Source: a virus. From it: DNA of 22,981 nt. Location of the stretch: positions 1 to 22,981 of IMG/VR virus record IMGVR_UViG_3300047457_000106. One strand, written 5' to 3'. The notes beneath the pieces are model-generated. The model ran no database searches and was not told the DNA's origin. It worked only from the letters and a program-made list of their open reading frames with translations. Positions within the stretch are counted from its first letter, which is position 1; every line of letters starts with the position of its first letter. This document shows positions 1-7,173 of this stretch, in pieces. Both the position numbers and the translations under genes were made by a program.

Positions 1-60
1 ATATAATAAAAATGGCATCGCAACCAATAATAAAGTCGAAAGTAAAAAATCTTTAATCAT
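1..60 (-). CDS. Small membrane protein, partial (cut by left window edge)
   Basis: The visible 20 residues read MIKDFLLSTLLLVAMPFLLY and continue beyond the window. They form a short charged start followed by a hydrophobic stretch, so an N-terminal membrane segment or signal anchor is likely. The ATG at 60 overlaps the stop of the upstream gene in the form ATGATTAA, the same arrangement as at 3789-3796, and this coupling is the main reason to call it. No family can be recognised from so little sequence. Confidence 0.45.
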   Translation of the reverse strand, partial: MIKDFLLSTLLLVAMPFLLY

Positions 61-211
61 TGTTCAAATTTAAGCGGGTTAATAATTCTTCGATAACTAA
101 CCAACGTTCGATTGCTCGTTGGGTATCCGTGTCTAAATGTCCGAATGCGTCGATATTTTCCTGCATCGTTTCGCGTAATTCTTGCTCGTAGGCTTTAATA
201 ATTGTTTCCAT
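53..211 (-). CDS. Small hypothetical protein (52 aa)
   Basis: This short gene starts METIIKAYEQELRETM and ends LTRLNLNND. It is charged and predicted helical, with Glu-rich amphipathic stretches, and has no membrane segment or recognisable domain. The start at 211 is chosen because the leader (AATTAAACGCTATGGAAACA) matches the leaders of the three neighbouring small genes at 449, 689 and 859. A GC-rich hairpin repeat (226-250) lies just upstream. It belongs to the small-gene operon driven from the promoter at 896-927. Function is unknown; accessory genes of this kind often encode host-interaction factors, but nothing here shows that. Confidence 0.65.
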   Translation of the reverse strand: METIIKAYEQELRETMQENIDAFGHLDTDTQRAIERWLVIEELLTRLNLNND

Positions 212-225
212 AGCGTTTAATTAAA

Positions 226-250
226 TGTGCGTTACGGATGCGCACCCCCC
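226..250 (-). repeat. Intergenic hairpin repeat, copy A
   Basis: A 25-base element repeated exactly at 465-489. On the minus strand it is a run of six G followed by TGCGCATCCGTAACGCACA. GTGCG and CGCAC can pair around a nine-base loop. Both copies are followed, one base apart in spacing, by the same gttttgtta on the plus strand. It sits in the leader of the 52-residue gene. It could be an RNA element acting on the next gene or a duplicated intergenic segment; no U-tract follows directly, so it is not a typical terminator. Confidence 0.7.
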
Positions 251-257
251 TGTTTTG

Positions 258-449
258 TTATTCCTCTAATCCTAAAATAAAGTTAAATGTTTGCGTTTCT
301 CCGTCTTCGTCTTCAATCCATCCTTGTTTAATTTTATCTTTTTTACCTAATCTTAAAAAAGCATCGGTAAAATCCTTGGCTTTAAGGGTAAAGCAACCAA
401 CCCCGAATTCAGTAGGAATCCAAATTGTAAATTCTTTAAGTGTTTTCAT
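258..449 (-). CDS. Small hypothetical protein (63 aa)
   Basis: The protein begins MKTLKEFTIWIPTEFGVGCF and ends FNFILGLEE. It looks like a small alternating beta/alpha protein with a central basic stretch (LGKKDKIKQ) and no membrane segment. Its opening (MKT, then alternating hydrophobics) resembles that of the 54-residue gene at 695-859, so the two may be distant paralogues. The start at 449 has the shared A-rich leader and lies behind hairpin copy B. Function is not recognised. Confidence 0.65.
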   Translation of the reverse strand: MKTLKEFTIWIPTEFGVGCFTLKAKDFTDAFLRLGKKDKIKQGWIEDEDGETQTFNFILGLEE

Positions 450-464
450 AACGTTTTTTTTAAT

Positions 465-489
465 TGTGCGTTACGGATGCGCACCCCCC
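465..489 (-). repeat. Intergenic hairpin repeat, copy B
   Basis: Second exact copy of the 25-base element at 226-250, located between the 62-residue gene (ending 501) and the 63-residue gene (starting 449). It carries the same GTGCG/CGCAC stem and six-base G run on the minus strand, followed downstream by AATT and a run of eight A before the start codon. The identical placement in front of two consecutive small genes favours a regulatory role over chance. Confidence 0.7.
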
Positions 490-500
490 GTTTTGTTAAG

Positions 501-689
501 TTATTGTTTATTTAAGAATTTTTCGTAATCGCAAAGAACTTTAATAAAATGCTCACGTTGTTTATCGGTAAGTTTTGCGGATAATGTATCAATAAATAAC
601 TCTGCATTTCTTTGACGTAAAACCTTTTCCATAGCTTCGTAAACTAACTTAGAATCAATGTTTTCAATGTTAAAATCTTGTGTTTCCAT
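501..689 (-). CDS. Small hypothetical protein (62 aa)
   Basis: A strongly helical, charged protein beginning METQDFNIENIDSKLVYEAM and ending CDYEKFLNKQ. Its sequence suggests two or three amphipathic helices and no membrane segment; no family is recognised. The start at 689 follows the stop of the preceding gene (695) by five bases and has the shared leader ending AAACGCTATGGAAAC. It is the second gene of the operon from the promoter at 896-927. Function is unknown. Confidence 0.7.
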   Translation of the reverse strand: METQDFNIENIDSKLVYEAMEKVLRQRNAELFIDTLSAKLTDKQREHFIKVLCDYEKFLNKQ

Positions 690-694
690 AGCGT

Positions 695-859
695 TTAGTT
701 TAATTCGGTTATTAAATAATTAACTGCATCTCCCCACGTTGTCGTACCCAAATAATTACGAGCATAAATCATTGCATAAGATAAATGCGTTTCTTCGATT
801 ACCTTAATAAATAACTCGTTTCCGTCTTTGTCTTGAAATTCAATTCTAAAAGTTTTCAT
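695..859 (-). CDS. Small hypothetical protein (54 aa), first gene of the left operon
   Basis: The protein reads MKTFRIEFQDKDGNELFIKV and continues to NYLITELN, a compact beta-then-helix pattern of unknown family. An upstream in-frame TTG at 898 would give 67 residues, but it lies inside the -7 promoter box (896-903), upstream of the expected transcription start near 890, so it cannot be translated from this promoter. The ATG at 859 also carries the leader shared by the next three genes. This is the first gene after the terminator that ends the late operon. Confidence 0.7.
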   Translation of the reverse strand: MKTFRIEFQDKDGNELFIKVIEETHLSYAMIYARNYLGTTTWGDAVNYLITELN

Positions 860-895
860 AGCGTTTTTTTTAATTGTTTCGTTAATAATCATACG

Positions 896-927
896 CAAAT
901 ATAAATACTAAGTTTCAATCTACCAAA
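896..927 (-). promoter_or_regulatory. Bacteroidetes-type promoter (TTTG-N20-TATATTTG)
   Basis: On the minus strand TTTG (924-927) is followed after 20 bases by TATATTTG (896-903). This matches the established Bacteroidetes -33/-7 consensus TTTG-N19/20-TAnnTTTG recognised by the primary sigma factor of that phylum. Transcription should start near 890, about 30 bases before the ATG at 859. The promoter sits between the late-operon terminator and the small-gene operon, exactly where one is needed. It is the strongest single clue to the host phylum. Confidence 0.85.
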
Positions 928-1001
928 CTTTTTCCAAACTTTTTTTCGATTTTCAACAAAATAATTTGTAACCCGTTGATTAACAAGCGTTTTTAAGGCA
1001 T

Positions 1002-1028
1002 AAAAAAAGGGGTATTTCTACCCCCCCC
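1002..1028 (-). terminator. Rho-independent terminator ending the lysis/late operon
   Basis: The minus strand reads a G run, GGGGTAGAAATACCCC, then seven T. The stem is six base pairs closed by a GAAA tetraloop, followed directly by the U-tract. It lies 20 bases after the stop of the phosphoesterase gene and closes the long leftward late transcript. The G run (eight G) extends beyond the paired region. Confidence 0.9.
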
Positions 1029-1047
1029 TTAACGCTATGTTGCTAAA

Positions 1048-1914
1048 TTACAACGGAAATTTGAAACTATCTATGTTCTTTATTAACGAATTTTCAACGT
1101 CTTTGCATTCAATTTTCAATATCCTACCTCCTAACGGCTTAACGGGTGCGCCTCGTTCAACGTGCCATCCGTGCGAACCATCTCCGTATTCCTCTTTGTA
1201 CGTTCCTGTAAGCATCGAATGGATGTACTTTTGTTTAACCGAATAACCTAATTTGGCGTTATGGTTTAGGCATTCCCTTACGTCATTACGTGCGCTGTTT
1301 TCGTGTATATGTCCCATTGAAAAAACGTCGAAATCTTCGTACATTTCCAAAGCGCGGGTAAGGTTTAACGCTCCTTTAGTAACGACACCACCGCCACCGC
1401 TCCCGTGGAAATACTTTATTTTGGTACTTAATGAAACGTTTGAATGGAACATTTGCCTAACAATTATCCAACCTCCGTACCCGCCTGTATAAACTGAAGT
1501 ACCGTTTTTGTAGTTTAATAAATCTACGAATCTTTGCAGTAAGTCCGTTTCTTGGAATTTAATAACTCCCGTTTCGTGGTTTCCGTAACCTATTACTTTA
1601 ATGATTTCCGCGTAAGGGGAAAACCATTCTACCGCAGTTTCTACGATACTATCTAAGTACCTTCCGTTATTGTGTTCGGTTCTAATGTCCGATTTATTGC
1701 GTCGATTATCGCCGCGTCCTTGCATTAAACAAAAGAAATCCCCGTTTATTACTACGGGAATATTATTCGACTTGCAAAATTCTAAATGCCTCTTTAATAA
1801 ATCGCGCTCGCATTTAGGGTTATCCCAATGAATATCCGATAACATAGCAACGTGAGCCATTTTACCCTCTAACCTTAGTTCGTGGATATTTCGTCCGTGT
1901 TTTATTAGCTCCAT
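1048..1914 (-). CDS. Calcineurin-like metallophosphoesterase
   Basis: This 288-residue protein carries the full metal-binding motif set of the calcineurin-like phosphoesterase fold: LSDIHWD (D27, H29), NGDFF (D59), GNHE (N112, H113), a His at 170 (FHG) and GHIH (H202, H204). Such enzymes use a di-metal centre to hydrolyse phosphodiester or phosphomonoester bonds, and phage members include DNA nucleases and nucleotidases; the substrate cannot be told here. The motif spacing is nearest to stand-alone phage phosphoesterases; there is no capping domain like that of SbcD/Mre11. It overlaps the spanin-like gene by 10 bases (ATGGAGCTAA) and is the last gene before the terminator, an unusual place for a nucleic-acid enzyme. 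Confidence 0.85.
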   Translation of the reverse strand: MELIKHGRNIHELRLEGKMAHVAMLSDIHWDNPKCERDLLKRHLEFCKSNNIPVVINGDFFCLMQGRGDNRRNKSDIRTEHNNGRYLDSIVETAVEWFSPYAEIIKVIGYGNHETGVIKFQETDLLQRFVDLLNYKNGTSVYTGGYGGWIIVRQMFHSNVSLSTKIKYFHGSGGGGVVTKGALNLTRALEMYEDFDVFSMGHIHENSARNDVRECLNHNAKLGYSVKQKYIHSMLTGTYKEEYGDGSHGWHVERGAPVKPLGGRILKIECKDVENSLIKNIDSFKFPL

Positions 1915-7094: not shown

Positions 7095-7129
7095 ATTAGT
7101 ATAACTCGTTAACGTGTTTTTTGTGCAAT

Positions 7130-7152
7130 AAAAAAGGGGGCTATTAACCCCC
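7130..7152 (-). terminator. Rho-independent terminator after the tail tube gene
   Basis: On the minus strand GGGGG, a short TTAATAG loop region, and CCCCC are followed by six T. The stem has five G-C pairs, extendable by two weaker pairs. It lies between the probable tail tube gene and the 110-residue gene. No promoter was found in the following 35 bases, so downstream portal, fibre and lysis genes probably depend on read-through. Confidence 0.85.
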
Positions 7153-7173
7153 TCTTTACCTTTTTAGAACATC

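Follow-up and report, generated by a model that had tools for sequence, protein, structure and literature searches.

A 25-base sequence stands without a mismatch in front of two consecutive small genes of a phage genome, which raises the question of what this sequence does there. The window, that is, the whole stretch of DNA analysed, is a 22,981-base virus record that holds exactly two copies of TGTGCGTTACGGATGCGCACCCCCC, at 226-250 and 465-489 of the plus strand; for an exact repeat of 25 bases within 23 kb a chance origin is ruled out. The genes are read from the minus strand, on which the element has the form GGGGGGTGCGCATCCGTAACGCACA and runs from 489 to 465 (copy 1) and from 250 to 226 (copy 2, identical to copy 1), each time in the gap that separates a small gene's stop codon from the ATG of the gene after it. 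Copy 1 follows the stop codon (503-501) of gene A (501-689, 62 amino acids) after an 11-nt A/C-rich spacer (490-500) and heads gene B (258-449, 63 amino acids), whose ATG (449-447) is reached after a 15-nt, A-rich, unstructured leader (450-464) without a Shine-Dalgarno sequence, an absence usual in Bacteroidota. Copy 2 follows the stop codon of gene B (260-258) after a 7-nt spacer (251-257) and heads gene C (53-211, 52 amino acids), with an A-rich leader of 14 nt (212-225) before the ATG at 211-209. The preliminary description was thus right that the two copies match exactly and lie on the same side of, and at similar distances from, a start codon; the further shared gttttgtta that it mentioned is GTTTTGTTA, which follows both copies with an offset of one base.

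The record has genes for terminase, portal, tape measure and endolysin; the large terminase shares 56% identity with its counterpart in Flavobacterium psychrophilum phages, and the contig is Flavobacterium-phage-like. The recognisable genes lie on the minus strand, and beyond the structural genes there is a small operon of short genes that begins with an ORF at 695-859 (ATG 859-857), followed by genes A, B and C; none of the four has a Pfam or PHROG match above cut-offs. Neither the first gene nor gene A is preceded by the element. A Bacteroidota-type promoter-like sequence, TTTG-N20-TATATTTG, was read by eye before the operon (895-930, minus strand), overlapping a weak sigma-70-like site at 926-898, and no sigma-70-like site was found at either copy of the element. 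A terminator scan of window positions 1-1100 found no terminator-like site, and the element lacks the combination of GC-rich stem and T-run of a rho-independent terminator: the sequence 3' of its stem, where the T-run would be needed, is A-rich. The element is therefore, as originally described, unlike a standard terminator or promoter. Elsewhere in the window, a GGGGTATTTCTACCCC hairpin at 989-1031, followed on the minus strand by a T-run, comes after a phosphoesterase-like gene (1914-1048) and probably terminates the late operon; another hairpin of this kind is found at 7116-7158.

The preliminary description had proposed a search for further copies, the lack of which would have spoken against a functional element. 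A 19-base core, GTGCGCATCCGTAACGCAC, has exact matches in 110 viral contigs, and a search of 84,980 cellular genomes (257 Gb of contigs) gave none. The exact-core copies shown have GGGGG before the core and A or G after it, follow a stop codon, have an ATG at short range and share one orientation, while their upstream flanks are unrelated coding sequence plus a short spacer. Relaxed scans gave at least 317 distinct stem-paired contexts in viruses of many hosts, nearly all in the sense orientation and just 5' of a start codon. Further copies are thus plentiful (at least 300 distinct ones in viruses), and with more than 300 distinct contexts a recent local duplication or a chance repeat is ruled out. 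The carriers that have a name are Stenotrophomonas phage Silvanus, Rhodococcus phage Shagrat, Corynebacterium phages C3PO, Zion and Darwin with their relatives, and Methanosarcina virus MetMV, a metagenome assembly with a predicted archaeal host (PMC7164591); the two copies of MetMV were counted as one, because both lie in its 8.7-kb terminal repeat. None of the named phages has the exact form found in the window. Whole records of 30 to 207 kb contain one to five copies. Because the viral collection is metagenomic, host ranges are known for a minority of the carriers. Most search patterns fixed the GCG/CGC stem core, G4, G5, C11, A12 and A19, so that rarer variants may be missed; a scan that left the stem bases free gave no variant core in the typical position among the matches listed.

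Pattern matches in cellular genomes fall into two sets, one within coding sequence and without a paired stem, the other paired and mostly before a start codon. Contigs with paired matches also encode terminases, an integrase, primases and tail proteins, and we accordingly rejected a chromosomal element: it belongs to viruses and proviruses. In 297 Desulfobacterota genomes the element was found only in the source genome of the match, plasmids gave no convincing match, and a match in a Dinoroseobacter phage was set aside as a chance match in coding sequence. Rfam 15 (E<=1) gave no match at the window copies or at the copies in 12 other loci, where all matches lay outside the element; a weak match to the PhotoRC-I leader RNA in another contig (L211:1053-1102, 22.6 bits) is below the gathering score and overlaps neither of that contig's copies. 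The sequence of the element was also not found in the open-access papers searched.

Comparison of the copies firmly predicts that the element is a 25-nt H-type RNA pseudoknot with the consensus N-N-GGG-NN-GCG-CA-Y-N-N-NNNA-CGC-NN-R. It would consist of a 3-bp helix S1, formed by positions 1-3 of the G-run with loop positions 15-13, a GG loop L1, a 5-bp helix S2, a CA loop L2, a loop L3 of the form NNNA (4 to 7 nt), and a closing purine. In copy 1, assigned from its sequence and from covariation of both helices in relatives, these parts are GGG (489-487) and TCC (477-475) for S1, GG (486-485) for L1, GTGCG (484-480) and CGCAC (470-466) for S2, CA (479-478) for L2, GTAA (474-471) for L3, and A (465). 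The same assignment in copy 2 pairs 250-248 with 238-236 and 245-241 with 231-227, and places L1 at 247-246, L2 at 240-239, L3 at 235-232 and the purine at 226. The preliminary description, which saw a run of six G with a GTGCG/CGCAC stem, had the 5-bp stem right; its picture was incomplete in that the sixth G belongs to this stem and the first three pair with the loop.

Both helices are supported by compensating changes, which the preliminary description had suggested looking for. In a search that left the two outer stem positions free (GGGGG-NN-GCG-CATCC-NNN-ACGC-NN), 229 of 231 distinct viral contexts had both of them paired (91 on average in shuffles, 110 at most), and 108 of 109 remained so after removal of the commonest class (shuffles: mean 32, maximum 47), with 16 pair combinations in all. 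The upper three stem pairs, GCG/CGC, are invariant among the copies found. For the other helix, Corynebacterium phage C3PO provides a swap to C1 and G15. A dedicated S1 scan, in which positions 1-2 were free and C at loop position 15 was excluded, gave 68 stem-paired copies among the matches listed, 63 of them with a standard 1-15 pair (A-U in 46, C-G in 13), compared with 10 of 44 chance matches without the stem. C2-G14 occurs in three copies and G3-C13, through a change of U to C at position 13, in three copies, all stem-paired and before start codons. The pairs seen are thus G-C, A-U and C-G at 1-15, G-C and C-G at 2-14, and G.U and G-C at 3-13. Among 91 distinct 25-mers all eight pairs are kept and four are changed on both sides, and a slide of the register by one to three columns abolishes the pairing signal. 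This set had been filtered for standard pairs at 1-15 and 2-14, whereas the tests of the outer stem, of S1 by scan and of positions 14 and 13 were unfiltered; counts were made on ungapped 25-mers only, because MAFFT misplaced longer loops. Covariation at all variable pairs therefore argues for the predicted fold, and the idea that the stem is under no constraint is contradicted. An earlier model of a simple hairpin was replaced by the pseudoknot after the C3PO swap and the dedicated scan. Pairing of the G-run with the anti-Shine-Dalgarno sequence of 16S rRNA (GGGGGUG/CACCUCC) was also considered and dropped, since the base at position 1 changes together with the loop and GGAGG never occurs as the run. 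The contig L165 carries two different S1 versions.

Some sequences depart from the common form. In Microbacterium phage Stoor and relatives (L330:1500-1565), GGGGG-GCGCG-CATCC is followed by a 41-nt loop with its own hairpin and then by CGCGC, the whole lying over 100 nt upstream of a start codon; this look-alike is possibly a long-loop member, though its G-run could also pair with the flank. A variant at L196:3644-3668, GGGGGGTGCGGCTCTTGAACGCACA, has a changed loop with which S1 is still possible via G.U pairs, and it heads a gene like those behind ordinary copies. A subclass with an 11-nt loop (CATCCGTAACA) was seen in nine contigs (L114, L117, L119, L122, L124, L128, L144, L151 and L153); its members mostly have no close upstream gene, follow TTTTCCACAGG repeats in two contigs, and often have a TTCCATTGCAT-like sequence before the ATG.

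The position of the element is constrained as well. Among the matches listed, 274 of 301 elements have an ATG-initiated ORF within 45 nt downstream, compared with 32 on the opposite side and 91 at random places, and the distance to the ATG is usually 12-30 nt. The spacer from the preceding stop codon is usually 6-12 nt and has a sharp lower edge at 6 nt: 1 nt was found once and 5 nt three times, followed by 50 cases of 6 nt, 49 of 7, 45 of 8, 35 of 9, 23 of 10, 22 of 11 and 14 of 12. For ordinary neighbouring genes of the same contigs, the commonest arrangement is an overlap of a few bases. A ribosome with a stop codon in its A site covers about 6 nt downstream, and the agreement of this footprint with the edge of the distribution suggests that the fold begins just past the terminating ribosome. 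The spacers on both sides of the element are A/C-rich and contain little G (6%). A Shine-Dalgarno sequence lies between element and ATG in hosts that use one, and in Bacteroidota-like contigs this place is taken by an A-rich leader. For 21 of 266 copies among the matches listed there is no same-strand gene within 60 nt upstream. In the large contigs L227, L252, L253, L272, L275, L280 and L282 a second conserved stretch, TTTAAAAACTAG or AAAACTACACCAAAAT, was seen between element and ATG, which suggests a host-specific initiation signal.

These features bear on two explanations in which the RNA would not act on the next gene. The element could be a recombination or operator site, or an N4-type single-stranded DNA hairpin promoter, with its RNA form irrelevant; its palindromic core and the delimitation of cassettes by direct repeats (see below) would agree with this. 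However, the 3-13 pair is G.U in 88 of the 91 distinct sequences and more G.U pairs occur in S1 and S2, all of which would be mismatches in DNA; the covarying pseudoknot pairs lie outside the palindrome, the orientation is nearly always sense, the spacing is locked to stop and start codons, and there is no promoter signature. The near-constant G.U, the wobbles in the stem, the sense orientation and the one-sided flank thus point to RNA rather than DNA, and we regard a DNA-level role as very unlikely. The preliminary description had also allowed for a protein-binding site, which at the DNA level is disfavoured by the conserved G.U pairs, the one-sided G-run and the sense orientation. Its option of an RNA regulatory element, in contrast, is strongly supported by the compensating changes in stem and pseudoknot as far as the RNA is concerned, with regulation as its probable role. 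Alternatively, the pseudoknot could stimulate readthrough or frameshifting at the upstream stop codon, since known stimulatory pseudoknots have a spacing of 6-9 nt, as many copies do here. No consistent frame relation was found, however: the distance from ATG to stop shows no preference modulo 3 (85/90/87), the three shifts give similar numbers of open fused frames (43/41/40), and slippery heptamers occur at only 10 of 262 sites, which makes recoding, already disfavoured, the least credible of the explanations considered.

The genes behind the elements form about 150 unrelated clusters, mostly of short ORFs, and those that can be named are largely early genes (Erf and RecT annealing proteins, SSB-like DUF3127, RusA, helicases, methylases and repressors). 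The element appears to move from virus to virus together with the genes behind it. The unit of copy 1 and gene B is missing exactly in four relatives of the window (L026, L051, L059 and L097), in which genes A and C are joined with one element between them. For 19 upstream contexts, two or more unrelated genes were found on the other side of the element, and of 31 downstream families with several members, 26 occur behind more than one upstream context. Such empty sites and reshuffled joints support the unit of a gene-plus-leader cassette that the preliminary description had also proposed. Relatives of gene B found by protein search (L523-L526) lie directly behind a promoter-like sequence and have no element, and the first gene of the window operon has none whereas its operon-internal homologue, for example in L042, has one. 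These contrasts indicate that the same gene may occur with or without the element, which is used mainly inside operons.

The element is therefore a constrained RNA fold that is tied to the next start codon, compatible with upstream translation, and portable. We propose, with a probability of roughly 55%, that it is a cis-acting leader-RNA pseudoknot that acts on translation initiation of the next gene. Lying just outside the reach of the terminating ribosome, the fold could stay intact in a translated polycistronic mRNA, and the unstructured A/C-rich linker would connect it to the ribosome-binding site. It would thereby separate that site from the upstream cistron and may offer a fixed recognition surface beside the start site, for the ribosome, a host factor or a repressor. 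A gene with such an element could be dropped into another operon, and the repeats themselves may provide the homology for swapping cassettes of element and gene. The effect on initiation would take one of three forms: a separator leader, passive or contacting the ribosome, a repressor operator, or a ligand switch. Separation from an upstream cistron is unlikely to be the sole role, given the 21 of 266 copies without a close upstream gene, and the almost invariant core (GGG, GCG/CGC, CA and A), which a pure insulator would hardly need, argues for a specific partner. Since most genomes have only one to five copies, the element is not a general viral expression signal. More tentatively, it might represent a new class of autonomous RNA device, among the smallest natural regulatory folds, that works by contact with the ribosome or a universal metabolite and needs no phage-encoded partner in bacteria or, probably, in archaea; phages would pass it on, attached to accessory genes, as a ready-made control unit.

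The partner could instead be a phage repressor, perhaps a single-stranded DNA-binding or annealing protein of the phage itself, that nucleates on the pseudoknot, spreads over the leader and shuts off early genes; this special case of the translational reading is possible but less likely than not. It would fit the near-invariant core, the presence of Erf, RecT, SSB-like DUF3127, RusA, helicases and repressors among the downstream genes, and the layout of the T4 gene 32 operator, in which a pseudoknot of about 28 nt precedes an unstructured ribosome-binding stretch (PMC535899). Yet most downstream genes do not encode DNA-binding proteins, most genomes have single copies, the contig L165 has two S1 versions, and no protein is common to MetMV, Silvanus, Shagrat and C3PO (phmmer, E<=1e-3). 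The main rival outside translation is mRNA processing, with cleavage in the A/C-rich spacer after the stop codon, so that the downstream mRNA would start with the pseudoknot and be protected by it at its 5' end. An unstructured, G-poor spacer of at least 6 nt, outside the terminating ribosome and directly before a compact fold, would suit such cleavage, as would the use of the element mainly at operon-internal genes and its absence from a promoter-proximal homologue. We nevertheless consider this unlikely, as it would leave unexplained the short distance to the start codon and the copies without an upstream gene, and nucleases vary widely among hosts. A riboswitch, in which the pseudoknot, on binding a small molecule or an ion, would control access to the ribosome-binding site, appears a little more doubtful still. 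The tiny, extremely conserved fold beside the ribosome-binding site, and hosts in many phyla with no phage protein in common, speak for it; the roughly 150 unrelated downstream clusters, however, share no common pathway and suggest no ligand candidate, there is no conserved expression platform and no Rfam match, and we know of no riboswitch as small as this element.

Among known systems the element would work most like the T4 gene 32 operator, with which it shares the layout of a pseudoknot and then an unstructured ribosome-binding leader, protein binding being known for T4 only. In T4 and RB69 a pseudoknot of about 25-28 nt lies between cistrons, close to genes of DNA metabolism, and is followed by an A-rich leader that is unstructured and contains the ribosome-binding site (PMC535899). 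That operator, however, belongs to one gene in one phage group, has a divergent sequence and shares none with the element, whereas here one near-invariant core heads some 150 unrelated genes across viruses with many different hosts; the T4 operator is bound and repressed by the single-stranded DNA-binding product of the downstream gene, whereas only some of the genes downstream of our element encode annealing or single-stranded DNA-binding proteins. The promoter-early stem-loops (PeSLs) of T4-type phages are short repeated intergenic hairpin motifs that combine an early promoter with a terminator stem-loop and serve as joints for shuffling small early genes (cited in PMC4503421). The element likewise marks a gene-shuffling joint, but it is a pseudoknot, has neither promoter nor terminator stem-loop, and spans many phage groups. 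In cluster K mycobacteriophages, short conserved repeats also precede start codons and in part contain inverted repeats: SAS lies directly next to the start codon, while ESAS consists of a 17-bp imperfect inverted repeat with a variable spacer whose sequence differs between subclusters, with no pseudoknot and no spread beyond the cluster reported (PMC3203893). The element differs from them in sequence, usually lies 12-30 nt from the ATG and has a 5-bp stem, and is thus not a member of that family. The preQ1-I and SAM-II riboswitches are small H-type pseudoknots beside the ribosome-binding site and resemble the element in fold topology and placement; unlike them, it has no Rfam match, stands before unrelated genes and has no Shine-Dalgarno sequence within the fold. 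Intergenic palindromes such as REP/BIME are found in both orientations and independently of start codons, whereas the element, also a short repeated palindrome between genes, is in sense and tied to the next start codon.

The copies thus represent a structured RNA family of hundreds of virus contigs that is absent from Rfam 15. The element marks early and accessory phage genes, many without known function, and so provides a sequence handle for finding such genes; it may also illustrate how phages can keep a gene expressible while it moves between operons and hosts. The ribosome, a metabolite and a phage protein are the candidate partners of the 25-nt RNA, with which the choice between them is directly testable. 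In a Desulfovibrio gallistercoris metagenome-assembled genome (L300:3090-3122, minus strand) a copy of the element forms a CRISPR spacer between repeats of GAAACACCCCCACGGGCGTGGGGAAGAC, indicating that hosts have met the element. The same genome also has a copy with a different loop before a gene (L304).
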